From assembly GCF_027944115.1 (NCBI RefSeq), contig NZ_JAPJZI010000001.1:1178001-1242000 (forward strand): a stretch of 64,000 bases of DNA, written 5' to 3'. The DNA comes from Hoeflea prorocentri. GTDB taxonomy: Bacteria; Pseudomonadota; Alphaproteobacteria; Rhizobiales; Rhizobiaceae. The notes under the pieces were generated by a model. That model saw only the letters and a program-made list of their open reading frames with translations. It had not been told where the DNA came from and did not search any database. Positions 18,989 through 38,653 of the stretch are shown in pieces (positions within the stretch are counted from its first letter, which is position 1; every line of letters starts with the position of its first letter). The translations under genes were made by a program, and so were the position numbers.

Positions 18989-20086
18989 TCATTCAAACAC
19001 CGGCTGAGATCCCGCAAAAGATGGTCGATGCCCAAAATAGTGTTTGCTGAAAGCGTCTCCCAGCGCCGCCTTGTCGAATTCAACCACGCCGGTATGGGTG
19101 TCACCCTCGCCATAAAACGCGTAGAGCACGTCTTCGGCAACCATCAGTGACATTGTGTAGTGCACACCCTTGTGCCGCCCGGCTGCCATGCCTCCAGTGA
19201 TCAAAGGTTCCGCAACAATGCTGACGGGCAGGAGCGTCTTGCGGTCAATCAACATTCCGAACTGAAGGTACAGCCTGTTTCGGTCATCGAGGTTTACGCT
19301 GTCAAACCTCTGATGGATGAAGGTCACGTAGTGATCCGCATCCCAAACCACAGGGTTGGTGCTGTTGAATACCGGTCCTGCCGATTGTTTGCCGAAACTG
19401 AATTCACCGGCGTCCAAGGCAACAACCGTCTTGCAATCCCCCTGGGCCGGATCAACTTCCAGAAGGAGATAAGGATCTACCGAATACAAACACAATAACC
19501 TGCCTTCATGGGAGAACATGACCCAGTTCTTTTCGTTGAGCCTGCGATGAAAGGGAGGTCGCAGGATGACCTGATTGAAAATCCTCTGCCGATCCACATC
19601 AAGTTCCGACAAAGCGGCCGAACAAAAGTTGTGAGTGCTGGTTTCGAGGTAAACGCAATGATTTGTGTAGATCTTCCCTTCGTGGTGAAGCAGCCTCCAA
19701 TCTTCCGGCCGGGCACCCTCGACACGTTCATATGTGAGGGTCTGATGTCTTTGCAGTGAGAGGTCTTTTCCCATGGTGCACAAGATCGGAGCGGACCAGG
19801 TCTCGAAGAGTTGACCGTAAACCCAGTTCTGCCCGTCGGCTTCAGCCCGGCATAGAAGATGGATGTCGCCATCGATCAGAATGCTTGCGGGATTGAAGGC
19901 TCCGGAATGCGATTCCGGACCGAGTTGACCGGCATTTATCAGGCGGCGTTGCCCGCGGATCAGACTGCGGTTCGCGCTGGACGCGTTTTGACTGTCGAAT
20001 CCCACTTTTAGTTGATGTTCCGCATTGAGCTGATTTCCTTTTTTTCCAATTGACCGCTGCCGCGCTACGCCGGTTGTCCCTCTCAT
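18989..20086 (-). CDS. GH130-like five-bladed propeller protein
   Basis: A 365-residue protein whose start overlaps the stop of the upstream transferase gene (ATGA). The SGAFNPASILIDGDIHLLCRAE segment near residue 60 (quoted in part) is the usual first blade of GH130/GH43-like proteins. GH130 enzymes are mannoside phosphorylases or hydrolases. Related proteins are also found beside glycosyltransferases as uncharacterised partners. The catalytic Asp cannot be assigned by eye. Paired with a GT8-like transferase in a two-gene leftward operon, it probably handles or trims a glycan. Lower GC than the catabolic genes next door. Confidence 0.55.
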   Translation of the reverse strand: MRGTTGVARQRSIGKKGNQLNAEHQLKVGFDSQNASSANRSLIRGQRRLINAGQLGPESHSGAFNPASILIDGDIHLLCRAEADGQNWVYGQLFETWSAPILCTMGKDLSLQRHQTLTYERVEGARPEDWRLLHHEGKIYTNHCVYLETSTHNFCSAALSELDVDRQRIFNQVILRPPFHRRLNEKNWVMFSHEGRLLCLYSVDPYLLLEVDPAQGDCKTVVALDAGEFSFGKQSAGPVFNSTNPVVWDADHYVTFIHQRFDSVNLDDRNRLYLQFGMLIDRKTLLPVSIVAEPLITGGMAAGRHKGVHYTMSLMVAEDVLYAFYGEGDTHTGVVEFDKAALGDAFSKHYFGHRPSFAGSQPVFE

Positions 20087-20922
20087 GAAGGAACAAGGAA
20101 GGGACTTTCAGTTTCTACACATTGTAAAAATGTATCCACATCGAACCTCCCGTCTCTTCTCCAGACATCGAGCAGTTTGCGCAGGACCATATGTTCCTGC
20201 GGAAGACCGTCATAGTTGCTGCAACAGAAATGCATTATCCGGGCGCCATCCAGCCACCCTTCTTCCGGTTTGCCAATGATGGCGTTGTAGGCACCGGGTA
20301 GCACTTCAATTGTAGGTGCGGCACAACTAAGTACATAGTTGAGAGACGGTTGGTCTTGTAGCCGCCCGCACTTTATTCTGGCTTCGTACCAAGATCGGTG
20401 CCAGAGCTTACCGACCTCATGCGCCTTGCAGGTGTCCTTGAAGAGAGCTACGCCTGAATTGAAATATCCTTCATCGTGATGTCGCCAGCCGAGTTCGCGA
20501 TATGTGCTCTGATTTGTCCATCTGCTCAATTGCCCTGACCATGGTTCTCCATCCACGTCCCAGGCCAGGGCGATATCAGCTTCCGTGGCAAACAAATGAT
20601 CAATGTTACTGATGGGCAAGGTGTCTGCATCAAGAAACAGAAAGTCACCGTCTACAAGCTGTCGTATCTGAGTTTTGATATATCTGCTCGTCAAGAAGGG
20701 ATACCGCTTATCGCGGAATATGCATCGCACCTCGATCTCCAGCCTCGACAACTCCTCTCGCAACTGGGCATTAAACTCATCCGCACCCTTGCAGGACAAC
20801 CAGATAATTTGGGCGTCCGGATGAAGTTTCCTTAGTGCATTGCTGGAGATGATGGACAGATCAGCATATATCTCGCTGCCCGGCGGATCGACCACAACAT
20901 AGCAGAAGGTGGACCTGGTCAT
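20083..20922 (-). CDS. Glycosyltransferase, GT8-like
   Basis: A 279-residue transferase. The metal/nucleotide-sugar DxD motif is FLFLDADTLPISN near residue 98. A second conserved part, GYFNSGVALFK, is typical of family 8 (glycogenin/LgtC-like) retaining transferases, and the late HFCCSNYDG may correspond to their final metal-binding HxxG-type motif in altered form. There are no membrane spans. It is divergent from the HprK-like gene at 21189 with 266 bases between them. Donor and acceptor are unknown. Confidence 0.7.
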   Translation of the reverse strand: MTRSTFCYVVVDPPGSEIYADLSIISSNALRKLHPDAQIIWLSCKGADEFNAQLREELSRLEIEVRCIFRDKRYPFLTSRYIKTQIRQLVDGDFLFLDADTLPISNIDHLFATEADIALAWDVDGEPWSGQLSRWTNQSTYRELGWRHHDEGYFNSGVALFKDTCKAHEVGKLWHRSWYEARIKCGRLQDQPSLNYVLSCAAPTIEVLPGAYNAIIGKPEEGWLDGARIMHFCCSNYDGLPQEHMVLRKLLDVWRRDGRFDVDTFLQCVETESPFLVPS

Positions 20923-21188: not shown

Positions 21189-22028
21189 ATGGCAGACCTA
21201 TCAACTGTTGTTACGACACGGTCCTTGACCACTGTCTTTCGTTTTCACTGCAATGATCCTGTATCTGCAACGGCTTTGTCCTTCCTCGGAGCAGATCCCG
21301 GGATGGAGCAAACGCCGGAGCAGGAAACCGATGTTGTCGTAAGATGCCTTGACGACGGCCAGTTCGATTTCGATCCGCCGTTCAGTTCCGATCCCGGCGA
21401 TGCAAATCATATGGTCGCCCGCGCTTATCGGCTGTTAAGCGACAGTTTTCTTGCGGAAAACCCGTCTGATCCCGTGCTTCATGGTGGCAGCCTGATTTCG
21501 AACGGACAAAGGTTCCTGGTGTCGGCACAGAAGGGTAACGGAAAGACCACATTGCTTCTTGCATGCCTTGCTGCGGGTATGCCGGTTGAGGCCGATGAGC
21601 ATGTTGTTTTACGCAAGGGCGATTTGATCGCGCGCCCCCGGACTTTAAGGATCAAGAGCGGATCGGTCGGGCTTGTCCCGCTTCTGAAGGATAAGGTTCT
21701 GGCATCGCCCTCGTTGAGAGACTGGAATGGAGACTTCATCTATTCCTTTCCGCCTCAAACGGAACAGGTGCGTTGGAAAATCCGGTCTGGACAGGCGGAT
21801 CAACTGATTTTTCTTGAAGCAAATTTTGGCGGAGCCTCATCGGTCGAGCGATTGGAAAAGGACGAAGCTCTCGCATTGCTTCTGCAGAACTGTTTCCTGC
21901 CGGATTCCAACAAGAGTGACGCATTGGCGCGGATCTACGGACTCGCACAGGATACGCCGGCCTGGCAGGTTCATGTCGGTGATCTCGGACAAGCAGTCTC
22001 GCACATTCAACGCATTTCCCAGATGTAA
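21189..22028 (+). CDS. HprK-like P-loop kinase-fold protein
   Basis: A 279-residue protein with the nucleotide-binding fold of HPr kinase. The P-loop is SAQKGNGKTTLLLACLAAG near residue 115, followed by the VEADEHVVLRKGDL strand that carries the catalytic-type Asp. There is no HPr kinase N-terminal domain, and the rest is not like HprK. Such stand-alone proteins are commonly found beside PqqD proteins and NTP_transf_5 proteins in loci for modified peptides or surface glycans; here both partners are within 4 kb. It may phosphorylate a peptide or protein. That role is inferred. Confidence 0.7.
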   Translation: MADLSTVVTTRSLTTVFRFHCNDPVSATALSFLGADPGMEQTPEQETDVVVRCLDDGQFDFDPPFSSDPGDANHMVARAYRLLSDSFLAENPSDPVLHGGSLISNGQRFLVSAQKGNGKTTLLLACLAAGMPVEADEHVVLRKGDLIARPRTLRIKSGSVGLVPLLKDKVLASPSLRDWNGDFIYSFPPQTEQVRWKIRSGQADQLIFLEANFGGASSVERLEKDEALALLLQNCFLPDSNKSDALARIYGLAQDTPAWQVHVGDLGQAVSHIQRISQM

Positions 22029-22078
22029 CCGCTCATTGCGACTGGCGTGTATGGCGGCCGTTGCAGAGAAGCGACGTC

Positions 22079-23236
22079 TCAGGGTTCGCGCAAGCCCGAC
22101 ACCTTTCTATCCTTGGCAAACCCGTGTTTGGCGCTTCGTCTGGTCAGGCTTTCCAGACATGGTCTGAGCAGCAAATTTGAAAGGACCAGCACACCAGACG
22201 GGCCCGTGTTCATGCGCCGCAATGTCGCCATGGAACCCCGAATATCCTCCTTCAACGCCTCAGACTGGGTTGCGACGCAACCATCCGCTATGCGTTTCCG
22301 AATGGCCCTTGCTCTTTCTTTCGATACGGAACTTGTGTCGGTGACGGGACGGGAGCCAAGGATTTCCTCACTGGCGGCAGCCCACAAATCATATGCGCTT
22401 GCAAGTCGCGGACGATTTGAGAGCGTTGTCGCCAGTTGCTTGCCGGATTGATCATCCAGGGATGCGTTGGCATGGGAAAACTCCAGCAAACCCTTGAGGT
22501 TGATCGTTCCAAACACCGTGCCGAGATTCTGAAAATGGTGATGCATCATGCCGAACAGCAGAAAATGATCGAACCTCAAAAGGCGAACACTGACGCCGGC
22601 AAATTCCGCGTTGATCGCGTTTTCCAGCAGATATTTGTCCGGTAGCAGGTAACGCGACTGACGTCCGCTCAGGTAAATATGCGGCTCGACATAAGCGGGA
22701 AAATCGGCCCGATGCATGGGCGGAAGATGATGGTGCGTTATCGACGTTGTGGCATCGGGCACATCCTCATAACCGATTTCCCTCAAAGCCTGAATTGCAG
22801 TTTGCGCTTCCGACCGATGGACGTAAAAGTCAATGTCGCGCTGCGATCGCCACCAGGGTTGCCCTGAGAGCAAGGAAACAGATCCTTTCAGCATCAGGGG
22901 CGTTACGCCGACGCTATTCAGGCTGCCGATGATTTCCAGTAATCCGTCGCGCTGTTTCTTGCGGCGTGCCGCGAGAAATTCTTCCATTTCTGCCAGCTCA
23001 TGACGAATGCCCTGGCCGGTATTTGTTTTGCCGTCGATGGGATGAAGAAGTCCCTTTTGCCGCATGGCATGCAGCGCCGACTCAACAATCTGCCACCTGG
23101 CGGCAGATGTGATCACACCCTGAAGATTTTCCATGTCCGAAAAGAGCGTTTGACGTAGTGCGGTCAACTCGTCGGGCTTAATGTTTTCCTTGAGACATTC
23201 AATCAGCAAGTCCGGTCGTTCGTCCGGTGATCTCAT
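22079..23236 (-). CDS. Nucleotidyltransferase family protein (NTP_transf_5-like)
   Basis: A 385-residue protein from the ATG at 23236; the frame is open upstream to 23503, but that part crosses the start of the next gene. The nucleotidyltransferase core is seen as PLMLKGSVSLLSGQPWWRSQRDIDFYVHR (in part), with the paired acidic residues RDIDF near 170. A helical C-terminal half follows. This family regularly accompanies HprK-like and PqqD proteins. It lies between those two genes but on the opposite strand. The nucleotide and acceptor are unknown. Confidence 0.68.
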   Translation of the reverse strand: MRSPDERPDLLIECLKENIKPDELTALRQTLFSDMENLQGVITSAARWQIVESALHAMRQKGLLHPIDGKTNTGQGIRHELAEMEEFLAARRKKQRDGLLEIIGSLNSVGVTPLMLKGSVSLLSGQPWWRSQRDIDFYVHRSEAQTAIQALREIGYEDVPDATTSITHHHLPPMHRADFPAYVEPHIYLSGRQSRYLLPDKYLLENAINAEFAGVSVRLLRFDHFLLFGMMHHHFQNLGTVFGTINLKGLLEFSHANASLDDQSGKQLATTLSNRPRLASAYDLWAAASEEILGSRPVTDTSSVSKERARAIRKRIADGCVATQSEALKEDIRGSMATLRRMNTGPSGVLVLSNLLLRPCLESLTRRSAKHGFAKDRKVSGLREP

Positions 23237-23388
23237 GGCAGTCTTATCCGGTCCGGGGTTATTGTATTCATTGCAATAATACTGATGGATTCGTGATGTG
23301 TATAACAGCTTTGCGATCCAGCAGGCTGAAATGCTTGCCATTGCCGGGTACAGTCGGCTGGTGATCTTCATGCTGCTGACCGTTTTGC

Positions 23389-24708
23389 ATGTTTGGCATC
23401 CGCAGGGATATGACACTGGCGAAGGAAAGGCGCAGTGACGTGAATATCGATCAAGGGGACAGGGGTGTGCGGTTATTGCATTTGGCCCCGATAATGCCTG
23501 CACGTTCTGGAAACGGCCTTGCGATGCGGTGCGGCATGTTTACCGAGGCGTTGGCACGACTTGGCGCAACCGAAGTAATTGTGGTTGGCGGTCAGGACAC
23601 GGTGCTCGATGAGGGCGAGATTGAAGGTGTGTCGGCGCGTGTGGTTTCCACTGCCGGGAGACTGGATACCAGGCTCCGCCTGATCAGCCAGATTGAAAAC
23701 GGCTATGAGCGTGCTGAGGCGCTTCGGGCGCTGGGTCGACCGTCCTCTACAGCCGTTTTGTCCGCCCCCGTCATCAAGGACGTAGCGGAATGGGTGGCGC
23801 AAAAGCAATGGTCGGGCATAGTCGTTTCCCGCAGCTATCTTACTCCACTGTTGAATGTCCTCCGGCCGATTGCCGATCGTGTTCCGCTATTGGTTGACCT
23901 CGATGATGACGATGCGTTGATGTTGAGAGAACGGGCGGCCATCGCCCGTTCCAGCAATAACTCGCAAAAGGCTGCCGTTCTGGAGGCCGAAGCCGATTGT
24001 TACGAGAAGGTTATCCAGAGCTGCTCCGGCCACGTGGTGACGTTTTGCAGCTCCAGCGAAGCCACATCCTTTCAGTTGAAAAGACGGCTTCAGCTTTCCA
24101 ATGTCGTGTCGATACCAAATGGAATAGAAGTTCCGGAAAAAGCACGTGTGAGTGCAGAGCGTCATACGCTTTTGTTCGTGGGAAATCTCGCCTATCAGCC
24201 AAACGTTGACGGTATCAGTTGGTTTGTCAGCCATGTTTGGCAGAGAGTGCGGGAACGCTTTCCAGACGTTGAGCTGGTGGTCGCGGGCAGTAACCCGTCT
24301 TCACGGTTGGCGGAACTGTGTCACGCGAATGAGGTTACATTGGAATCGGACCCGGTATCGATATCCCCGCACTACACACGGGCAAGGGCAGTCGTCATCC
24401 CGTTGCGAACCGGTGCGGGGACCCGGATAAAGCTGCTGGAAGCCGGCGCCCACAATGTACCGGTTATCTCAACGTCCAAGGGTGCGGAGGGCCTGGATGT
24501 CCTGCCGGACAAGCATTTCTATTGTTGCGATTATGACCCGGAGGAAATGTTAAGCGCCTGTACTGAATGCCTGTCCAGCCCGGTGGAGGCAATGCAAAAG
24601 GCGGAAGAATTACATGCGATGGTTTGCAGAAACTATGGTCGTTCGGACGTTATCGGGACTATTACGGAACTGGTGCAGTCCATTATTAAACCGACTCTGA
24701 AGCAATAA
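23389..24708 (+). CDS. Glycosyltransferase, GT4/GT1 (GT-B fold)
   Basis: A protein of up to 439 residues. The start could be the ATG at 23389, the ATG at 23410, or the GTG at 23440, which follows GAAGGAAAGG. The N-terminal domain has HLAPIMPARSGNGLAMR. The C-terminal nucleotide-sugar domain has FVGNLAYQPNVDGISWF near residue 265 and the family E-x7-E region as IPLRTGAGTRIKLLEAGA. It is read in the same direction as the PqqD, small peptide and GT2 genes downstream. No signal peptide or membrane span, so it acts in the cytoplasm. Confidence 0.82.
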   Translation: MFGIRRDMTLAKERRSDVNIDQGDRGVRLLHLAPIMPARSGNGLAMRCGMFTEALARLGATEVIVVGGQDTVLDEGEIEGVSARVVSTAGRLDTRLRLISQIENGYERAEALRALGRPSSTAVLSAPVIKDVAEWVAQKQWSGIVVSRSYLTPLLNVLRPIADRVPLLVDLDDDDALMLRERAAIARSSNNSQKAAVLEAEADCYEKVIQSCSGHVVTFCSSSEATSFQLKRRLQLSNVVSIPNGIEVPEKARVSAERHTLLFVGNLAYQPNVDGISWFVSHVWQRVRERFPDVELVVAGSNPSSRLAELCHANEVTLESDPVSISPHYTRARAVVIPLRTGAGTRIKLLEAGAHNVPVISTSKGAEGLDVLPDKHFYCCDYDPEEMLSACTECLSSPVEAMQKAEELHAMVCRNYGRSDVIGTITELVQSIIKPTLKQ

Positions 24709-24785
24709 AGGCGAGTGAACTTCTTGTTCCTTTAAGTAATAAGTGCTTATTTCGGCTTTGTTTCGTATGTGTACAGGGTGTCCCA

Positions 24786-25061
24786 ATGGATAGCATATCA
24801 GAAGACGCATGTTTTGAGCCTGTGAGCAATCTCGAAGTGAGCGAGGTACCCGATGGATTTGTGATTTATGACGAACCTAACGGCAAGGTGCATTATCTCA
24901 ATCCAACCGCGGCGATCATCTACTCGCTGTGCAACGGAAAAAAGACCGTTGCCGATATTCAGAGTTTCATCCGTTCTGCCTATGAAACCGATGAAAAGAC
25001 CGAACTGGATGGCTTTTTTCAAGAGTTGAGCGACGCGAATCTCATCGTCAAGCGGAAGTAA
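24786..25061 (+). CDS. PqqD-family protein (RiPP recognition element)
   Basis: A 91-residue PqqD-like protein. The fold is recognisable from GFVIYDEPNGKVHYLNPTAA (residues ~23-42), then the helix IYSLCNGKKTVADIQSFI, and a final helical part ending in DANLIVKRK. PqqD domains bind the leader of a precursor peptide and present it to modifying enzymes. The ATG follows ACAGGGTG. A small peptide gene starts 180 bases downstream, the natural place for a substrate. Stand-alone PqqD with an HprK-like protein and glycosyltransferases is not a standard RiPP layout. Confidence 0.85.
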   Translation: MDSISEDACFEPVSNLEVSEVPDGFVIYDEPNGKVHYLNPTAAIIYSLCNGKKTVADIQSFIRSAYETDEKTELDGFFQELSDANLIVKRK

Positions 25062-25241
25062 AATGTCGTCTCAAGCGATCGATTTCTTAAACTTTCCGGC
25101 GAAAACGCGAAAAAACCAATCACTTTAAGTGGTAGTTGAAGAATAAATCTTGTTGGTGAATATTTTGCCCCAATGATTTACACGATGATACGGTCATGAT
25201 AGACGATTCCCGGTTTGTTACATGATTAGGGGACAGTAACG

Positions 25242-25415
25242 TTGTCAGATGAAGCCGAACGCCACCTAGAAGACATCGATGAAGACAAGCGCAACACTAT
25301 TACGACGCTGCTGAAAGTATCGGCTTTTGTGATCCCGACAATCGCTACATTTTCCATAGACGGGAAATTGTCGCTGGCTCGCGCGCAGGTACTGTCGAAC
25401 ACATTCAGTTCGTAA
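25242..25415 (+). CDS. Small peptide, candidate precursor for the PqqD locus
   Basis: A 57-residue open frame starting with TTG, 8 bases after AGGGGA. The first 20 residues are acidic (SDEAERHLEDIDEDKRNTI), followed by a hydrophobic, helix-like part (LLKVSAFVIPTIATFSI) and a tail with an A-x-A-type site (SLARAQ) and SNTFSS at the end. It contains no Cys. It is directly between the PqqD gene and the GT2-TPR gene, 31 bases before the latter. An acidic N-terminal leader and a short Ser/Thr-containing tail fit a RiPP precursor. A small exported or membrane peptide is the alternative. Coding status rests on position, RBS and composition. Confidence 0.55.
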   Translation: MSDEAERHLEDIDEDKRNTITTLLKVSAFVIPTIATFSIDGKLSLARAQVLSNTFSS

Positions 25416-25446
25416 GCACGCCGGTACATGGCTGTTGACGGATTAA

Positions 25447-26583
25447 ATGTTGTCCGGACGTTCGCCCAGTATCTCCGCGTGCCTTATCGTAAAGAACGAA
25501 GCTCATTTCCTACCTGATTGCCTGCGGTCTATCGGGCGACAGGTCGATGAAATTGTGCTGGTCGATACCGGGTCAGTCGATGACACCGTATCAATAGCTA
25601 AAAGTTTCGATTGCAGAATTTTCCATTTCGATTGGGTTGATGACTTTTCAAAGGCCCGCAATTATGGTCTTGATCAGGCCACAGGCGAATGGGTTCTGTA
25701 TATCGATGCGGATGAGCGGCTGAATATCTCGACCGCAGGCGGCCTCAAACAGGCACTAGCGGATGTCGATGCCATCGCCGCAAGAATTAAGTTCCGTTCC
25801 AGCCCCAAAGTGACTCCATATGCGGAGTACCGCCTGTTTCGGAATGATGTCCGGCTCCGTTTCACCGGTTCGATGCATGAAACCAACGTGCCCGGCATAT
25901 TCGATGCGGTTGAACGGGACGGTGCCAAGATTGTCGATCGTTTTGACGTCTCCATCCTGCATCTCGGCTATGAAGGGGACCAGTCTGCAAAGCATGAACG
26001 GAACCTGCCGCTGCTTGAAGCAGCGATCCGGGATGATCCGGATCGTGTTTTTCTCCGGTTGCATCTTGGTTCGGTGCTTGGCGCGCTTGGCAGGAGGCAA
26101 GACGCCGTCCGGCAACTGACACGTGGAATAGAACTCGCGGAGAGGCCGCAGGCTCCGGAGCAAGCCCGCGTTGAAGGTTCGGCATGTGCCAAAGTGTTGT
26201 GCGATTTCTTTCTCGATACGGGAGATTTAGCTTACGCCGTTGAGTTCGCCGGCAGGGGGCTGTCCTTGTTCGGAGAAAACCTGCAATTGCATTGGATGCA
26301 GGCCAGATGCCTGGTCGCGGCAGGTTCTTACGAAGATGCCATTGAAATACTCAACGGTCCTTTGAACCAACGGTATGACGAGTTCTTTGACCCGAAAATT
26401 GCTTATGATCACCGTCTCTTCCGGGAAGACCGCTTCGGTCTGCTGGGAAGCGCCTGGTTCAGGCTTGCAGAGTATCAAAAGGCCGCCGACTGTTTTGCAC
26501 GTGCTTCCAGCGAGGCGGAAGATGGACGGGAATATGAGGCCAAGGCGTCGGTCGCAAGGATGCGCCTTACAACGGCCGGATAA
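25447..26583 (+). CDS. Glycosyltransferase family 2 with C-terminal TPR-like repeats
   Basis: A 378-residue protein. The GT2 domain starts with SACLIVKNEAHFLPDCLRSI, has VDTGSVDDT, then DDFSKARNYGLDQATGEWV and the DxD-type IDADERL near residue 95. Residues ~190-375 form helical TPR-like repeats (LRLHLGSVLGALGRRQDAV). This GT2-plus-TPR layout is that of SunS/ThuS, which glycosylate bacteriocin peptides (glycocins), and also of many uncharacterised transferases. The location one short step after the small peptide gene makes a peptide acceptor plausible. That acceptor is inferred. Confidence 0.82.
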   Translation: MLSGRSPSISACLIVKNEAHFLPDCLRSIGRQVDEIVLVDTGSVDDTVSIAKSFDCRIFHFDWVDDFSKARNYGLDQATGEWVLYIDADERLNISTAGGLKQALADVDAIAARIKFRSSPKVTPYAEYRLFRNDVRLRFTGSMHETNVPGIFDAVERDGAKIVDRFDVSILHLGYEGDQSAKHERNLPLLEAAIRDDPDRVFLRLHLGSVLGALGRRQDAVRQLTRGIELAERPQAPEQARVEGSACAKVLCDFFLDTGDLAYAVEFAGRGLSLFGENLQLHWMQARCLVAAGSYEDAIEILNGPLNQRYDEFFDPKIAYDHRLFREDRFGLLGSAWFRLAEYQKAADCFARASSEAEDGREYEAKASVARMRLTTAG

Positions 26584-27940: not shown

Positions 27941-28429
27941 ATGAAAAACATTGAATTGTCCTTCACGGCTGCTCAGTGCCGGGCCGCTCGTGGGCTGTTG
28001 AACTATTCCCAGTCCAGAGTCGCAGAGGTGGCCCACATCGCCCCCGCAACGCTCTCGGAGTTTGAGCGGGGCGATAGGATTCCAAGCCACAACAATCTTC
28101 AGGCGATACGCACCTCCTTGGAGACTGCCGGTATTATTTTCCTAGATAGGTCAGGAGTTCGCCTACGCTCTGGCTCAGAGGAAAATGCCCCTAGCGGAAC
28201 ACCAATTTCTCCAGGTCTGTGCAGAGCTGCTCGCTATCTTCTTAATCTGTCACAGCAAGATCTGGCCGAAGTGGCCGGAATTGCGCGATCTACGATTGCC
28301 GAATTCGAGCGTGGAGCGCGCATGCCCGTTGCCGATAATGTGGCAGCAATGCGCAAAGCCCTAGAAGCCGGTGGCGCTGAGTTCATTGACCCTAGTGGCG
28401 GCGGGCCGGGTGTGCAGTTACGGGAGTGA
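27941..28429 (+). CDS. Tandem XRE-family (Cro/CI) helix-turn-helix regulator
   Basis: A 162-residue protein made of two similar HTH domains joined by a ~20-residue linker. Domain 1 (residues ~8-68) has CRAARGLLNYSQSRVAEVA and LSEFERGDRIPS. Domain 2 (~88-150) has CRAARYLLNLSQQDLAEVAG and IAEFERGARMPV. The repeat of CRAAR-x-LLN-x-SQ shows an internal duplication. A single polypeptide could therefore bind a full operator as a pseudo-dimer. It lies ahead of the giant STAND gene, reading toward it, and may control it or the divergent gene. Confidence 0.85.
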   Translation: MKNIELSFTAAQCRAARGLLNYSQSRVAEVAHIAPATLSEFERGDRIPSHNNLQAIRTSLETAGIIFLDRSGVRLRSGSEENAPSGTPISPGLCRAARYLLNLSQQDLAEVAGIARSTIAEFERGARMPVADNVAAMRKALEAGGAEFIDPSGGGPGVQLRE

Positions 28430-28649: not shown

Positions 28650-31600
28650 TTGTTTGAAGCAATTTTGAAGAACGATAGAAATAGCATAGACAAAGTCAGG
28701 GTATCACGTGCCGGGCACACCTTTCACGAGCGGTGGGCGGCACGGCGTGCGCTGCAACTTGTGTTTCCAAAGGACAATCTTTTTGCGATTGTTATCGAAG
28801 GTCTCTCTCCCAACGAGCGTCTCAAACTCGGACAGGATGCAGAGGACATCGCCGATCTTATCCTCTTCTATGGGAATGGCGACACTTTTGAGACCTGCAC
28901 CGCCCAGCAAATTTTGCAGTTCAAATACAAGGTGGCTGCAGAAGCAGTCACATCTTCCTATCTCAAAAAAACCATCAAAAAATTTGCCGCAACACTACGA
29001 GAACTCAAGAAGAGTGTGACAGATGAAGAAATTGCAAAGAAACTGTCATTTGGGTTCGTGACTAACGCCGAATTTTCAAGCGACCTATGGGAGGCCATTG
29101 CATGTTTAAAATCGGGAGGTACACCGAAAGCCATAAGCGCTAAGACTCAGCTTCAATACCTGAAAATCTGGTGCCGCGAGGAAACCATCAACGCGGAGGA
29201 GATTTTTCCGCTAATCGAATTTCGGGCCTCGACAAGCGATCTGCCAGCACAGAACCGATCTTTGCGAAGAACAGTCAGTGATTGGTCGGCCGACTCCACC
29301 GGGCAGGCGGCTAAGCGGTTGTTTGCACTCGTGGAACTTGTCCGCGAGAAAGCACAAATCGAGGGTCAAGGCAATAACTCTATAAGGCGTGAAGATGTCC
29401 TAGAGGCGCTCGAATGTGATGAGGATCAGCTGTTTCCAGCGGATACACGGTTTGTTGATGTTGGTGATGTTGTTGAACGTAGCGCCCTACAAGACGTCAG
29501 AGACAAGATTGAAACATGCAATCTACCCGTATTTCTGCATGCTGATGGCGGTGTTGGAAAAACCGTCTTCATACAGAGCCTTGCCGCAAATCTGACAGAT
29601 ACTTTCGAGGTCGTGGTTTTCGATTGTTTCGGCGGCGGTTCGTATCGGTCCGAAGCTCAAGCCCGTCACCTGCCACGGGTTGGCTTGCTGCAAATCATCA
29701 ACGAACTTGCTACGCGCGGGCTCTGTGATCCACTTCTTCCAACCGACAGTGATCAATATGGGTTGACAAAAACCGCCGTCAAGCGTCTCAAGCAAGCCAG
29801 CGAAACCGTCAAAAACCAGTCGGTAATGCGAGGAGTGCTAGTTGTTTTAGACGCTGCAGACAATGCGCAGCTCGAAGCTGATGCACGCAATGAGGCTGCG
29901 TTTCCAAGGCTTCTGCTCGCATCGCTCAGCGAAGAGCCTATCGACGGTGTGAAGCTTTTGCTCACCGCACGTCCTCACAGGATGAACGACGTCATTGGCA
30001 AGAGCCAGGTAGAGCGCTATGAGCTGGAACCCTTCACTAAAACGGAGACGCAAAGTTTTCTTGAGACCAGGCGAAAGAATATCGCGGATGTGGAATTTTC
30101 CACGGCGTTCGCGCGTTCGCGAGGCAATGCCCGGGTTCTTGAGTACCTCGTCGAGAGTTGGGATGCCAATGTGTCCGGCAATTCGCCGCAGACCGAAATA
30201 TCCGTAGAAGAATTGATCGCACAAAAGTGCGAGAAAATATTCCACGATCTTCACAAGGTAGGTTGGAGCGAGACTGAAGTACGCGAATTCTTTGCCGCTC
30301 TATCGCTTCTTCCACCGCCCATTCCGCTGACTGAATTGGCCAAGGCGTTGGACTGGTCAGAGTCGCAGGTAAATAGCGCTGCCTCTGATCTTGCACCGAT
30401 GCTTGAGCTGGTTAAACACGGTGCGATTTTCCGCGATGAACCGACTGAGACCTACATTAAGGATCACTATGCGAGCGAGGTTTCTGCGCAGCAATCCATC
30501 GCGCAAAGGCTTCAGGCGCAACAGACGGATTCCTTCTACGCGGCGGAAGCGTTGCCTCATTTCCTCGTGGTAATTGGCGATAGTAACAGAGCTTACGAGT
30601 TAGCGAGCTCTGACGAATTCCCCGGTGTTATCGAGTCGGAATACGGACGGCGCAGATTAAAACTAGCGCGTCTCTACGCGGCATTTTCTCTTGCTGCACG
30701 CGAGGGGGATTTGGACCGTGTCTTGAGCCTCACGATGAAACTCTCGCAGGTGGCTTCGGCAAACGCGAGAGGCGATGAGTTCATCCGACGTTCTCCCTCG
30801 TTGGCAACAATCCTAGGAGATTCTGATTCCTCCCGCCGCCTGTTCAATGATCGATCCGGCTGGCGCGGCGCACGCGATGCACGCCTTATCGTCGCTTACA
30901 GTTTTTCAGACGAGCTTGACGAAGCGCGCATACATCAAAACAGGGCGATTGGTTGGATAAATTGGTACCTGCACAATGACGATGAGCGCAAACGGTTTGA
31001 CCGGTCAGGTCCCGAGGCATTCGACATTGCAGCGGTGATGTTATCGAGTGTGTTGAAGAATGAGTTCTCCTCGTTCAATCGCAATATCCAGTTGTGGAAT
31101 TTCAAGTTTGCGCTCTCTGTCATTGAACAACTTATTACGCTGTGTGCACAGCACGAATCGTTCAATGGAAGCGAGGCTTTGCAGTCTCTGGCTAAATTTG
31201 CGGCGTCGAAAAGGTGTCTTTCTCTCAGCCTGCAAATTGGTCTGCTATCAAAGGAATATGGCCTATCAAAGAGCCAGGTCAAAGCTGTGTCGCGAGCGGC
31301 CAGCTCTTTATCACAGCGATACAAGCAGAAAATTCCTCAGGACAACTCCGACTACCAAATGGAACTGCAGGGTACTCTCGCCAGTGCGGCGATGGGGTCC
31401 TTAGTCATGAATTCGAGGCAATCCGCAAAGCGGCTGTTTAAGTTGTATCACCATCGCAGACCATCAAGCTATGACTACAGCGAGCGGCATGGCTTGAATT
31501 TAGTTTGGATGTCTGTCCAATCGGCTTGTATCGCGGCGTGGTCGTCCGGTGAAGAGATTTCTTTTCACCATCTGATGCCGGCGGACGTGAAAACGGGGCG

Positions 31601-34600
31601 AAGGACAAAGTCAATCGTGACCGAAGCTGATCTAAGTACATTCCTCGATAGCCTCTTTGTGACAAAAGACAATGGCAAACAGAGAAAAGGACAGAAGCAA
31701 GAAAAAACCAGACAGTTTTCGCAACATGAACGGGAAAACATTGTGAGGGGCGCAGCGTGTGTCTTGCAGCTGGTGAAGCCTTTGGAGATTGCCCTACTTT
31801 CGAAGCGTGCGCTGACAAATAGTGTTTTGGCTGAGTTCTTGGCTGTCTGGAAAACTGTGCTGAATCCCGACCTCCATTGGAAAGCCGAAACGGGAAGAGA
31901 CAATGTCGCGCGTCACGTTGGCATTGGGCTTGCTAGGATACTACTTCACTACAGTGAAACGGTCGAAGGGAAAGAAGCGCAAGACCTGTTGGATATTATC
32001 GGCGCGAACCGGTTTTCACTGGGTGATAAGCTAAGCGTTCTGACACTTATCGCGAGGCGTAAAAATCTGACGGATGTCACAGGAGTGTACGCAAATTCGC
32101 TTTCCAGCGACATTGTAAAGGACGACTATATCGAACAACGCGGCGAGTCCTACCGAGATTTGGCTGGATCGCTGATCCCGATGAGTATTGAGGAGGCGCA
32201 AGAATACTATGCTGAAGGGTTGACTCAACTTGATCAGATGGGCGGGGACGACTTCGACCTGATCTACTCTGCATTGCACTACGCGGCTGAACAGCCCGGG
32301 GGATTCGTCAAGCCTGAGCACTCGCACCGACTTATGAATCTCTGTCAGACGATTTTCCAACATGATCCATCGAAGTTTGGATGGACACTATTTGGGCGCG
32401 CGGCCACTTGTTCCTTCGGCTTCCCGACAATGTATAAGCTGATCCGTTGGCATGATCAGGATGTTGTCAATTACTCCTATGGCCTTCCCCAACTTGCCTG
32501 TTTTCTTGCGAAGGAAGGTCACCTGGATCCACGCCGTGGGGCGGTACTACTTACAATCTGTGAAGATCATGGCTGGCATGAGTGGCAAGTCGGCAAGGGG
32601 CTGCATGATTTGCTTTCAGTCGCCGATCCAGAAGACAGAGAAGCGATCTTCTCACTTGTGACAAGGAAGCTGGATCGTGAACACAGTTTTGGCGGTTGGG
32701 AAGGACTTTGGGAAAGTTTGCTGGATTGTATGGATGCCTTTGAAGAAATCAACCATGGGGGTTTACGGAATCACTTTCGAGCATTGCGAGAGGCGGCCCG
32801 GCGTCAGCGCGACATCGAAAATGCTAGAAGGAACTATAGCACGGCAAGAGCTGACCACAGCCTTCAGGTAGGTAGCAAGAAGCGTGATAAACAGGCTGGC
32901 GAAGATGCCTTCGCGATTATTCTTGCCAGGTGTGATCCCACATCAGCGTCCTCGCTTGATGAAGCAATACGAGACATTCAATCTAGTGATGCGCTGCAGT
33001 TCGATAGCAGAAAACGTCTGTTTGATGAGATACGGAAGACGTGCCCATTTGAGAATCGGGTTAAGTTCCTTGATGCTCTTTGCGAGTCCGGCGAGCTAGA
33101 ATTTGATAGCGCGCTCGATTTGATGGTCGAATGCGTAGAGGCTTGGAGCGATAGCACGGCGCATATAAAGAAGAACGTACTTGAACTGATCAAAAAGCTT
33201 TTTGCGTTCAAGGGCTCTGAACTATTTGATCTTCGCTATTCGGGCATTTCCAGGCAAATCTACCGTTTGTCTGAATTGTGTGGCGATCCGAAATTCGTGC
33301 TGCAAACTGTCTTGGACACGATAGCTAAGGAACGCCTCGAGCTTGGGGGCGACGAATGGCTTCAATTGGCGACTAACCTGTCCTGCCACACTGATCCATC
33401 GACAGCCTTGGATGCATTCGAAGACTTGCTGTCGAGTTCCGCCGCGAAAGTAGGCGATGAGGTCGGCGAAGGCGTGTATCGCGCTGTGTTTGCGGGTAAG
33501 ACCGAAGAGGTCGATCTGGTCGCAGACATCATCTGGCATTTGCTCGGTAGTAGCGACGCCTTTGTCAGATGGAGTGCCGCAAGAAGTCTTGGGGGTATGC
33601 TTGATCTCGGTTTGACCGAGGACATAGGGCGGTTACTTGATAGATTTGACGTGTGCGAAAATCCGTCACTGTCCTCCAAAGAGTATCATTTCGCCTTCCT
33701 AAATGCTCAGCAATGGCTGTTGATGGGATTGGCGCGTGCCGCTCTACACCACGGCGACAAGCTCAAGTCCCTGAAACCGAAAATTGAAGCGCTTGCAAAG
33801 CGGACCGATTTGCATGCGCTCCACAAGCTTCATCTGGTTCGGTGCCTGACACATATGGAAGACGGAAAGGCCAATAACCCGGAGCTTGCGCAATTATGGA
33901 TCGAGGTTCGAACGCCACCCCACGGCTTTGTCGAACGCGATGGCTGGCCAGATAAAAAAGATCAATCGATCGATTTTGATTTCGATTACGAATTTGACAA
34001 GTACAAGGTTCCCAATCTGGAAAACCTCTTCTGGATTTCGAAGAACGAAGCGAGTGATTCCATTGCCGCTGAAGTGATAAAGCGATGGCCAGACGCCAAG
34101 AGTATGTCCGACTTTCCTGGCGGAATTCGTTATCTTGGCGACGAGAGATTCGAGACTTATCGCGAGCACATTCAAAGGCATGCTTATCTACATGCGGCGA
34201 CAACACTTTTGAACACCAGGCCAGTAGTGCGGTCGAGTTATGATTATAAAGAAATAGATCCTTGGCAGGAATTCTTGAGAGAGAACGACGTATCTTTTGA
34301 GGATGGCTCATGGCTGTCGGATCATAAAGACCGTGTTCCGAAACAGGCGCATGAAGTCCTACTCGGCACTCGCAGAGGAAACATGGAAACACTTTTAGAT
34401 AAGGATGTGCTGTTCCAGAAGGTTGGGTTCCCGGAAGAATCGGCGGATTGCTTCTGGCCACTCTATGGAATTTGGAAATCACCGGACGACGTACATGTCA
34501 GTCTTAACTCCGCTTTGATTCTTGAGCGAGGTGCGATCGGGCAATGCGCTAGGCTCTCGAAATCTCCTAGTCACGATTTATGGCTGCCCCGTTTCAAGTC

Positions 34601-35096
34601 GGATGGGAGCATTGATAGCTTTGCAAAAAGGAATCCATTTTACCCTTTGATTTGGGCACCTGAAAAGTACCCCATGGGTATTGATGAAGGTGATGAATGG
34701 GCTGCTCGGAGCGCGATAGCTCGCCCAAAGCTAGGCCTAGCAATTAACAAGCTGCTAGGGCTGACACCCGAAGACGAAGAGCGGCAGTGGTGTAACAGCA
34801 ACGGCACGCTCGCATTGACGTGCGATGTCTGGGGTGAATGGAGACCTGATCCCGATGACCATAGGAGTAGATTTCAGGATGAGGGTACATTGTTGTGTGC
34901 AGAAAATGTTTGGCTCGATGGAGCACTCAAATCCTGCAAAATGAGTTTGGTTTTCGTGCTCAGTTTCTCGAAATACAAATCTAGCAGGAGCTATGATGAT
35001 TCTTCCGGGGTTCGGGAACTATATATTGGCTTAAAGCGAAGCGGTAAGCCCCGTCGTGTCTGGTTTGCCAAAAAAGCATCTGAAACGTCGTACTAG
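28650..35096 (+). CDS. Giant STAND NTPase with N-terminal nuclease-like domain (Avs-like)
   Basis: A 2148-residue protein, start TTG at 28650 (weak RBS, start uncertain). Residues ~15-110 look like a PD-(D/E)XK/Cap4-type nuclease: GHTFHERWAARRALQL, an acidic VIEG near 48, EDIADLILF near 65-73, and LQFKYK near 90. Residues ~290-500 form a STAND NTPase: Walker A HADGGVGKTVFIQSLA, Walker B VLVVLDAADN near 397, and LLLTARPHR near 437. The remaining ~1600 residues are helical and repeat-like, as expected for a ligand sensor. This layout matches antiviral STAND (Avs) proteins, which detect phage proteins and then cut DNA. The exact subtype is not clear. Confidence 0.8.
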   Translation: MFEAILKNDRNSIDKVRVSRAGHTFHERWAARRALQLVFPKDNLFAIVIEGLSPNERLKLGQDAEDIADLILFYGNGDTFETCTAQQILQFKYKVAAEAVTSSYLKKTIKKFAATLRELKKSVTDEEIAKKLSFGFVTNAEFSSDLWEAIACLKSGGTPKAISAKTQLQYLKIWCREETINAEEIFPLIEFRASTSDLPAQNRSLRRTVSDWSADSTGQAAKRLFALVELVREKAQIEGQGNNSIRREDVLEALECDEDQLFPADTRFVDVGDVVERSALQDVRDKIETCNLPVFLHADGGVGKTVFIQSLAANLTDTFEVVVFDCFGGGSYRSEAQARHLPRVGLLQIINELATRGLCDPLLPTDSDQYGLTKTAVKRLKQASETVKNQSVMRGVLVVLDAADNAQLEADARNEAAFPRLLLASLSEEPIDGVKLLLTARPHRMNDVIGKSQVERYELEPFTKTETQSFLETRRKNIADVEFSTAFARSRGNARVLEYLVESWDANVSGNSPQTEISVEELIAQKCEKIFHDLHKVGWSETEVREFFAALSLLPPPIPLTELAKALDWSESQVNSAASDLAPMLELVKHGAIFRDEPTETYIKDHYASEVSAQQSIAQRLQAQQTDSFYAAEALPHFLVVIGDSNRAYELASSDEFPGVIESEYGRRRLKLARLYAAFSLAAREGDLDRVLSLTMKLSQVASANARGDEFIRRSPSLATILGDSDSSRRLFNDRSGWRGARDARLIVAYSFSDELDEARIHQNRAIGWINWYLHNDDERKRFDRSGPEAFDIAAVMLSSVLKNEFSSFNRNIQLWNFKFALSVIEQLITLCAQHESFNGSEALQSLAKFAASKRCLSLSLQIGLLSKEYGLSKSQVKAVSRAASSLSQRYKQKIPQDNSDYQMELQGTLASAAMGSLVMNSRQSAKRLFKLYHHRRPSSYDYSERHGLNLVWMSVQSACIAAWSSGEEISFHHLMPADVKTGRRTKSIVTEADLSTFLDSLFVTKDNGKQRKGQKQEKTRQFSQHERENIVRGAACVLQLVKPLEIALLSKRALTNSVLAEFLAVWKTVLNPDLHWKAETGRDNVARHVGIGLARILLHYSETVEGKEAQDLLDIIGANRFSLGDKLSVLTLIARRKNLTDVTGVYANSLSSDIVKDDYIEQRGESYRDLAGSLIPMSIEEAQEYYAEGLTQLDQMGGDDFDLIYSALHYAAEQPGGFVKPEHSHRLMNLCQTIFQHDPSKFGWTLFGRAATCSFGFPTMYKLIRWHDQDVVNYSYGLPQLACFLAKEGHLDPRRGAVLLTICEDHGWHEWQVGKGLHDLLSVADPEDREAIFSLVTRKLDREHSFGGWEGLWESLLDCMDAFEEINHGGLRNHFRALREAARRQRDIENARRNYSTARADHSLQVGSKKRDKQAGEDAFAIILARCDPTSASSLDEAIRDIQSSDALQFDSRKRLFDEIRKTCPFENRVKFLDALCESGELEFDSALDLMVECVEAWSDSTAHIKKNVLELIKKLFAFKGSELFDLRYSGISRQIYRLSELCGDPKFVLQTVLDTIAKERLELGGDEWLQLATNLSCHTDPSTALDAFEDLLSSSAAKVGDEVGEGVYRAVFAGKTEEVDLVADIIWHLLGSSDAFVRWSAARSLGGMLDLGLTEDIGRLLDRFDVCENPSLSSKEYHFAFLNAQQWLLMGLARAALHHGDKLKSLKPKIEALAKRTDLHALHKLHLVRCLTHMEDGKANNPELAQLWIEVRTPPHGFVERDGWPDKKDQSIDFDFDYEFDKYKVPNLENLFWISKNEASDSIAAEVIKRWPDAKSMSDFPGGIRYLGDERFETYREHIQRHAYLHAATTLLNTRPVVRSSYDYKEIDPWQEFLRENDVSFEDGSWLSDHKDRVPKQAHEVLLGTRRGNMETLLDKDVLFQKVGFPEESADCFWPLYGIWKSPDDVHVSLNSALILERGAIGQCARLSKSPSHDLWLPRFKSDGSIDSFAKRNPFYPLIWAPEKYPMGIDEGDEWAARSAIARPKLGLAINKLLGLTPEDEERQWCNSNGTLALTCDVWGEWRPDPDDHRSRFQDEGTLLCAENVWLDGALKSCKMSLVFVLSFSKYKSSRSYDDSSGVRELYIGLKRSGKPRRVWFAKKASETSY

Positions 35097-38441: not shown

Positions 38442-38443
38442 GA

Positions 38444-38653
38444 TCAATTTTCTTGCTGCGGGCAGTCGCCCTTGAGAACGGCCCTGCGGGCACCTTCAAG
38501 TTGACGCAGGAGATTTGTGCGCGTGAGCTTGCTTTCACCACGAAGTTTTGAGATGGCGGATACGCTTGCCTGGTCCAGCGCTTCGTCCTTGGCCTGGTCG
38601 TCAATGAAGTCTGACAGGACCTCGCTCGCGGATCTGATTTTTTCAGTGGTCAC
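38444..38653 (-). CDS. Small helical protein, operon partner of the zinc-hook ATPase
   Basis: A 69-residue charged protein, start ATG at 38653. Its stop lies two bases before the ATPase ATG, so the two are translationally coupled. The sequence is predicted helical (SASEVLSDFIDDQAKDEAL, then LTRTNLLRQLEGARRAV) and ends in CPQQEN. It has no recognised family. By size and position it could be a regulator or adaptor of the ATPase. It is divergent from the GIY-YIG gene with 28 bases between starts. Confidence 0.6.
   Translation of the reverse strand: MTTEKIRSASEVLSDFIDDQAKDEALDQASVSAISKLRGESKLTRTNLLRQLEGARRAVLKGDCPQQEN

Follow-up and report, generated by a model that had tools for sequence, protein, structure and literature searches.

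Phosphorylation followed by glycosylation has been described for the lasso peptide pseudomycoidin. As far as the available text of two reviews goes, an HprK-like kinase and a nucleotidyltransferase phosphorylate and then glycosylate its C-terminal serine; the nucleotidyltransferase PsmN was linked to the attachment of one hexose or two to the phosphorylated peptide, and nucleotidylation followed by the action of a host glycosyltransferase was not excluded (PMC9266682, PMC8498205). The same texts report that lasso kinases phosphorylate the C-terminal serine of the precursor and that the remainder of the peptide matters little (PMC9266682, PMC8498205), and one of them gives an H-K-D-D motif for these kinases (PMC9266682). 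In the available parts of two further papers, rumen-bacterial lasso clusters likewise hold genes for HPr kinase, PqqD, nucleotidyltransferase and a family 2 glycosyltransferase (GT2) (PMC7533575), and PqqD-like proteins near enzymes are regarded as signs of clusters for ribosomally synthesized and post-translationally modified peptides (RiPPs) (PMC7470986). Here we analyzed a stretch of 64,000 nucleotides from Hoeflea prorocentri (C1:1178001-1242000 in a two-contig genome of 5.04 Mb), hereafter called the window, in which an open reading frame (ORF) of 57 codons lies among genes of this kind. We lean, by a modest measure, towards a non-lasso RiPP-like system in which a precursor encoded by this ORF is modified and exported.

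The small ORF (25242..25415, forward strand) has a TTG start, preceded at a distance of 8 bases by a likely ribosome-binding site AGGGGA (25228..25233, forward) that can be read directly, and its translation is LSDEAERHLEDIDEDKRNTITTLLKVSAFVIPTIATFSIDGKLSLARAQVLSNTFSS. It begins 180 bases past the end of pqqD and stops 31 bases ahead of a GT2 gene. The PqqD, HprK-like, NTP_transf_5 and glycosyltransferase genes named together with this ORF in the original prediction were all found in their places. Similar to the tailoring of pseudomycoidin and paeninodin, an HprK-like kinase (21189..22028, forward), a nucleotidyltransferase (22079..23236, reverse) and a PqqD-type protein (24786..25061, forward) accompany a small peptide, which in the window ends with a serine. 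In contrast to the lasso clusters, the window has neither a B2 protease nor an Asn-synthase-like cyclase: the five PF00733 matches of the genome all lie outside it, and the single PF13471 match is found at C1:3775770, approximately 2.5 Mb away. Lasso peptide formation was therefore rejected for this locus. Further differences are the signal-like leader, the presence of several glycosyltransferases and a short tail without a ring-forming Asp or Glu at positions 7-9. That no lasso B1/B2 pair is present, as had been predicted, holds for the locus and fails for the genome, which has a PqqD gene and a Transglut_core3 gene side by side near 3.776 Mb.

The 57-residue ORF is a genuine protein-coding gene. 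A profile built from eight peptides, all from other loci, matched its frame in the window with an E-value of 1.3e-14, the runner-up among the 1481 frames of the window reaching 1.1. When relatives were compared in pairs inside four groups over a block of 28 codons, non-synonymous differences were rarer than synonymous ones (pN < pS) in all 30 pairs, and variation is highest at third codon positions. The window and its relative in genome G370 are identical at 16, 21 and 8 of 28 first, second and third positions, and 15 of 28 residues agree, compared with only 4 and 2 when the frame is shifted. The substitution pattern is thus of the protein-coding type and non-random, and conservation of the small ORF beside PqqD, HprK-like and NTP_transf_5 genes, a further expectation attached to the prediction, was seen in eight other loci, with support from other genera and families and from none of seven same-genus genomes. 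A spurious ORF might have been suspected from the TTG start, the length of 57 codons, the missing matches to Pfam and NCBIfam for the ORF itself and the missing same-genus relatives; in view of the profile match, the syntenic relatives and the concentration of variation at third positions we consider its probability close to negligible. Among 15 family members scanned (20 are known), none matched an NCBIfam model and a single peptide gave one weak Pfam match (E 0.008).

A direct peptide search of 61 genomes (the own genome and 60 relatives) gave a meaningful E-value for the window alone, and the weak matches of this search (L002-L005, E 0.6-0.9) were taken as chance. With the kinase as bait, matches were obtained in 11 of the 297 genomes searched from the order, the own genome counted, and small ORFs matching the window peptide were found near several of these kinases, with a tandem array of seven in G100 and three in G195. 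A combined pattern and tblastn scan of 84,980 species yielded 65 candidate stretches, leading to five loci (L027-L031) from Phreatobacter, three Bradyrhizobium records and one metagenome-assembled genome of Rhodospirillaceae; L031 belongs to a strain of Bradyrhizobium diazoefficiens. L027 and the G195 locus share one contig, as do L020 and L027, which agree in length and in their matches, and were counted once. Profile searches matched 5 of 397 genomes of the order including the own one, with G370 newly gained, 1 of 385 genomes in the class sample (the window's own) and 2 of 299 in the phylum sample. In the latter, the match next to that of the window was weak (G995, E 7.7e-4) and was dropped because of a stop inside the frame. 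Altogether, the family comprises 20 peptides, the window included, in nine independent alphaproteobacterial loci with one to seven copies each. Therefore, the family is rare and, within our sampling, alphaproteobacterial.

Besides, carriage by mobile elements was considered and rejected. Although 27 viral stretches fitted a pattern, none was a relative, and plasmids gave no match to the peptide of L031, the only one queried. A plasmid search with HprK returned four distant matches, every one in Ensifer. On plasmid pT173c of Ensifer canadensis (L049, 6491-8669), an operon has a gene annotated as 'nucleotidyltransferase family protein' that overlaps with one for a 'hypothetical protein' resembling a kinase.

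PqqD, the HprK-like kinase, the peptide, GT2 and NTP_transf_5 occur together in all nine loci, and in each of them the peptide gene adjoins GT2 on the same strand. Conversely, no intact peptide was encountered outside such a cassette, neither when 84,980 species were scanned by pattern nor in the samples taken from the order, the class and the phylum. The gene order PqqD, HprK, peptide(s), GT2 is kept in six loci (L023, L028-L031, L045). Between PqqD and the kinase preceding the peptides, G100 and L027 have genes for a further kinase, GT4 and PF11051, and NTP_transf_5 is convergent with GT2 in eight loci. A relative of the GT4 glycosyltransferase (23389..24708, forward, PF13692, 77.1 bits) is present in eight of the nine loci, the exception being L023, where a GT4 profile search found nothing. 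Likewise, a mannosyltransferase-like PF11051 protein was found in eight loci, by Pfam in L023, L027, L028, L031 and L045 and by clustering in L021, L029 and L030. Searching the window with the corresponding Mann3 profile gave nothing significant, the top frame being that of a GT8-like gene (E 0.051). Anp1-type transferases are encoded in at least five loci (L023, L027, L029, L030, L031), and genes for a GT10 fucosyltransferase and for an NAD-dependent epimerase are present in L023, both of them with relatives in L027. Locus L026 (G085) was not included among the nine, as the ORF in its peptide slot lacks the A-x-A motif (E 0.0086).

The peptides share a leader with the pattern D..[KR]R, a hydrophobic stretch and A-x-A, the last motif being present in 20 of 20 peptides. 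In an alignment of 15 rows D13, R17, A28, F29, P32, A35 and F37 (window numbering) are invariant, as are N53 and S57, the latter two depending on the placement of gaps. In the window the leader comprises residues 1-48 (25242..25385, forward), with D..KR, the hydrophobic stretch and A-R-A at its end; the putative core QVLSNTFSS (residues 49-57, 25386..25412, forward) is delimited by this A-x-A. Tails after A-x-A have 6-16 residues, and in L029 the tail continues into a Peptidase_S74 domain. All 20 tails have an Asn with Ser or Thr within the next four residues, and 16 of them, that of the window not included, contain N-x-S/T. In 20,000 shuffles with one tail per locus, A-x-A stood in place in at most five of nine loci and the Asn..Ser/Thr pattern was never found in all nine, which is a guide and not a probability, as the places were picked after the sequences had been seen and the loci share ancestry. 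Tandem copies are found in four of the nine loci; their leaders are conserved and their last residues vary, as expected of precursors. Tails end with Ser in the window (QVLSNTFSS), G370, G114 and L030 (GVTLPNSTAS, AIVSNSTTS and IVPNAS among them), and the tails of the other five loci are of the NGSGVxx, NGTGSG.. or CNMLHSG.. types. The A-x-A leader, the tandem copies elsewhere, the C-terminal serine and the link to lasso tailoring go beyond what had been noted for this DNA before. Regarding export, the leader resembles a Tat (twin-arginine translocation) or Sec signal in its sequence. The Tat motif is of the type S/T-R-R-x-F-L-K; the twin basic pair of the family is KR in seven loci and RR in two, and the mean hydrophobicity over 17 residues is moderate (1.4-2.4).

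No Pfam family above its cut-off was found for the HprK-like protein, and its best NCBIfam match is TIGR04352 (52.9 bits, cut-off 200). In a profile search against the sequences in PDB, the best match was RecA (E 2.6e-7), followed by HprK/P (E 1.1e-6), so that the fold is not settled by sequence alone. The structure model (predicted local distance difference test, pLDDT, 95.0) aligned with PEPCK (1ayl) with Z 15.9 and a root-mean-square deviation (rmsd) of 5.1 over 262 residues. The best Foldseek E-values were 5.1e-9 for PEPCK and 1.6e-5 for HprK/P, and in VIA-align PEPCK took up the best 50 matches, with HprK/P chains not among the matches listed. PEPCK and HprK/P belong to one superfamily, and an HprK/PEPCK fold is predicted for the putative peptide kinase on the basis of the model. 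Its residues H98, K119, D136 and D265 fit the H-K-D-D motif of lasso kinases, an assignment made by us from the motif named in the review and not from an aligned lasso kinase sequence. Over 15 kinase rows D136 is retained in all, K in 13, and H and the second D in 11 each. The second HprK-like copies of G100 (L021, 10743-11645) and L027 (5272-6177) have P and R in place of H and K, as if they were non-catalytic partners.

The NTP_transf_5 protein (PF14907, 64.3 bits, cut-off 31.2) is taken to begin with the ATG at 23236; its frame remains open up to a GTG at 23503. Its model (pLDDT 82.7) matches nucleotidyltransferases such as ANT(2'')-Ia and MenT1 (Z 11.0 for both; 165 and 178 residues aligned; rmsd 3.6 and 3.8), and K117, G118, R130, D134, D136, H170, E184 and H186 are the same in all 12 rows. 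The match to FKRP (Z 6.1) was too weak for use. PsmN of pseudomycoidin is, as we presume, a PF14907 member as well. The PqqD-domain protein, a putative RiPP recognition element, exceeds its Pfam cut-off (PF05402, 41.6 bits, cut-off 23.4) and has a family alignment of ten rows. The GT2 protein (25447..26583, forward; PF00535, 77.3 bits) has a TPR-like C-terminal half (TPR_19, 35.6 bits), and its closest PDB sequences are GmaR (E 2.7e-26), whose target is a protein, and SunS (E 1.7e-18). As in glycocins made with SunS, the proposed substrate is a ribosomal peptide. Unlike in glycocins, GT2 stays below the SunS cut-off (TIGR04195, 74.6 of 350 bits), and 17 of 20 tails have no Cys, including that of the window, whose peptide is wholly free of it. 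An exosortase/PEP-CTERM connection, hinted at by a match of GT4 to TIGR03087, was rejected since the genome has no exosortase match.

Taken together, these results suggest the following pathway. The PqqD protein would bind the conserved leader in the cytoplasm and hand the peptide over to the modifying enzymes. A Ser or Thr of the tail would then be phosphorylated by the HprK-like kinase, the simplest candidate in the window being the Ser at the end of QVLSNTFSS, and NTP_transf_5 may act next on the phosphate or a hydroxyl group by hexose, sugar-phosphate or nucleotidyl transfer. GT2, as the peptide-type enzyme, GT4 and the accessory glycosyltransferases might lengthen the sugar. The Tat- or Sec-like leader would carry the product over the membrane, with cleavage after A-x-A, and the released product would be a phosphoglycopeptide of about 6-16 residues. 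The sequence of kinase, NTP_transf_5 and glycosyltransferase is proposed by analogy with the tailoring of pseudomycoidin in the reviews. The original prediction, a peptide that these enzymes phosphorylate or nucleotidylate and glycosylate, is supported in part. We favour an exported modified precursor because nine independent loci keep the peptide together with PqqD, the HprK-like kinase, GT2 and NTP_transf_5, the peptide next to GT2, and because further glycan genes (PF11051, Anp1-type) join the cassette elsewhere. Moreover, the excess of pS over pN, the A-x-A in every peptide, the kinase fold and the H-K-D-D residues fit this proposal, as does the proximity of GT2 to GmaR and SunS, which modify a protein and a peptide, respectively.

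Nevertheless, several observations speak against such a pathway. The order in the window is rearranged, the kinase and NTP_transf_5 genes lying upstream of GT4 and pqqD directly before the peptide. L026 has PqqD, kinase, GT2, GT4 and PF11051 genes, but in the fetched stretch no NTP_transf_5 and no clear peptide. A C-terminal Ser is found in just four of nine loci, so that the others would need an internal Ser or Thr or trimming. H, K or both are lost in four of 15 kinase rows (the second copies of G100 and L027, L022 and L026), and the second D in four as well, including G370, the peptide of which is the most window-like in the DGKL segment. The scanned HprK-like and PqqD proteins are below the NCBIfam cut-offs. 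Regarding export, no transporter or peptidase was recognised in the groups shared by ten clustered loci, some of these groups being without assignment and L045 standing outside the comparison. The sole transporter group is an ABC (ATP-binding cassette) ATPase in four loci (L021, L026, L029 and the window) that lies about 8-20 kb from the peptide and is probably unrelated to the cassette. The use of Tat is only putative because of the KR pair in seven of nine loci and the moderate hydrophobicity. Finally, in one relative (L029, 9977-10435, forward) the peptide is fused in frame to Peptidase_S74 (32.4 bits, cut-off 22) directly past its NGTGSALPP tail. Peptidase_S74 was rejected as a general partner, given that the fusion occurs in L029 alone and the genome of the window has no S74 match. 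Two of five short S74 frames from the order sample were inspected (L087, L109); neither has the family leader, and one has a lipoprotein-like start.

The set of several glycosyltransferases per locus, with PF11051 in eight loci, Anp1 in five or more and GT10 in L023 with its relative in L027, would also suit a membrane-anchored glycan primer, in which the hydrophobic segment found in all 20 peptides stays uncleaved and the tail bears a polysaccharide made by these enzymes. However, A-x-A at the same place in every peptide fits cleavage, and the shared groups, as far as assigned, gave no sign of a flippase or polymerase. We regard this explanation as unlikely, though worth keeping in mind. Rather less probable still is a role of the small protein as a regulatory or scaffold subunit of GT2 or the kinase, with another molecule as the true substrate. 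The constant vicinity of peptide and GT2 genes agrees with such a role, and so does the fact that modification of the peptide has so far been proposed and not observed; the signal-like leader and the presence, in four of nine loci, of several tandem copies that differ at their ends suit a substrate better.

Lasso clusters use the same tailoring enzymes, and the genome has one Transglut_core3 gene and five Asn_synthase matches. A lasso or other macrocyclic peptide might hence be formed with a cyclase and a protease from elsewhere in the genome. Since none of these matches lies in the window, this seems very improbable. Lasso rings close at an Asp or Glu at positions 7-9; only two of 20 tails contain either residue and none has it at these positions.

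Other described systems resemble the locus in part. The HPr-rel-A system of NCBIfam is the source of the best model for the kinase (TIGR04352 HprK_rel_A) and of the third best for PqqD (TIGR04353 PqqD_rel_X). However, both scores (52.9 and 26.2 bits) fall short of the curated thresholds of 200 and 35 bits, and none of the 15 peptides scanned fits an NCBIfam model. As in the biosynthesis of pyrroloquinoline quinone with PqqA and PqqD, a PqqD-domain protein stands by a small precursor-like gene, whereas the match to TIGR03859 reaches 28.1 bits with a cut-off of 46. Among the window proteins scanned no radical SAM match was found; the whole genome was not searched. In the available text of two surveys, fusions of RiPP recognition elements (RREs) to glycosyltransferases, with PF00535 in one of them, were considered possible new RiPPs (PMC7470986, PMC12710340). 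In our locus PqqD is a separate protein, and neither survey uses the word 'kinase' in its main text as available (PMC7470986, PMC12710340). Features typical of RiPPs are seen here, namely a conserved small precursor-like gene with leader and variable core beside enzymes and a PqqD-fold recognition element above its cut-off, and we infer the role of the peptide as a precursor from them. In the open-access literature, a scope outside which most subscription papers lie, we found no description of HPr-rel-A or of a PqqD/HprK/NTP_transf_5 system with a precursor peptide; the RiPP-like pathway with this peptide family and gene set was not found described.

Going further, the locus may represent a RiPP class of its own, comprising linear phosphoglycosylated short peptides that are exported by a signal leader and modified by a portable PqqD/HprK-like/NTP_transf_5 module, which in lasso clusters serves for tailoring only; many alphaproteobacterial HprK-like genes may serve small peptides with an RR leader, in which case exported peptides carrying phosphate and sugar might form a large overlooked group. 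We put this forward tentatively, with chances somewhat short of even. If true, the kinase/nucleotidyltransferase pair would leave the lasso peptides and become the heart of a separate pathway, and NTP_transf_5, listed in Pfam as 'uncharacterised nucleotidyltransferase', would gain a natural family of peptide substrates, short and easily synthesised, allowing direct tests of its chemistry.

Elsewhere in the own genome, a cluster (L116, 8862-13892, at approximately 3.776 Mb) has PqqD, Transglut_core3, HprK-like and NTP_transf_5 genes (PF14907, 75.1 bits) side by side. PF14907 is found here next to Transglut_core3, which ties the kinase/NTP_transf_5 pair to lasso-like genes independently. The cluster also has an acyl-carrier-like ORF, judged by eye, and an AMP-binding enzyme, with no Asn_synthase match nearby. 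Another cluster of this genome (L117, 7303-10175) comprises PqqD, an HprK-like protein and a PF11397 GlcNAc-transferase, and on the opposite strand a small ORF with an RR leader and a tail rich in Ser and Pro. In other genomes of the order, pairs of HprK-like and NTP_transf_5 genes without a PqqD or GT2 match were also found. Small ORFs with an RR leader and the ending GHSGC are located at the upstream end of such pairs in L025 (10039-10332), L047 (6906-7223) and L048 (10557-10865). An HprK-like match is present in 115 of 289 genomes of the class, many spanning the P-loop part only. A strict script detected candidate small RR-leader ORFs near HprK-like genes in four of 16 stronger and two of 13 weaker loci (6 of 29, all fetched loci except that of the window) and in one of 30 controls, which were S74 neighbourhoods of unmatched composition, the test having been written after such ORFs had been seen. 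This is no more than suggestive of a general link between HprK-like genes and small RR-leader ORFs.

Besides the cassette genes, two reverse-strand genes of the window are possibly accessory. Of the two to four glycosyltransferases predicted, GT4 and GT2 are clear, and a third, GT8/Nucleotid_trans-like protein (20083..20922) scored slightly under the cut-offs with PF03407 (21.1 bits) and PF01501 (19.8 bits). The protein adjoining it (18989..20086) is function-unassigned and without a Pfam match. In the clustering of ten loci neither had a homologue group in common with other loci. On the other side of the cassette a large NACHT ATPase is encoded on the forward strand (28650-35096), its top PADLOC match being Avs3a (E 1.5e-174, residues 15-983), beside a regulator with two helix-turn-helix domains (27941-28429). 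Judging from these matches, the region looks like a defence island adjoining the cassette. An SMC/AAA ATPase on the reverse strand (36042-38447) with an LmuB-like PADLOC match (E 5.6e-28) is likely a further defence gene.

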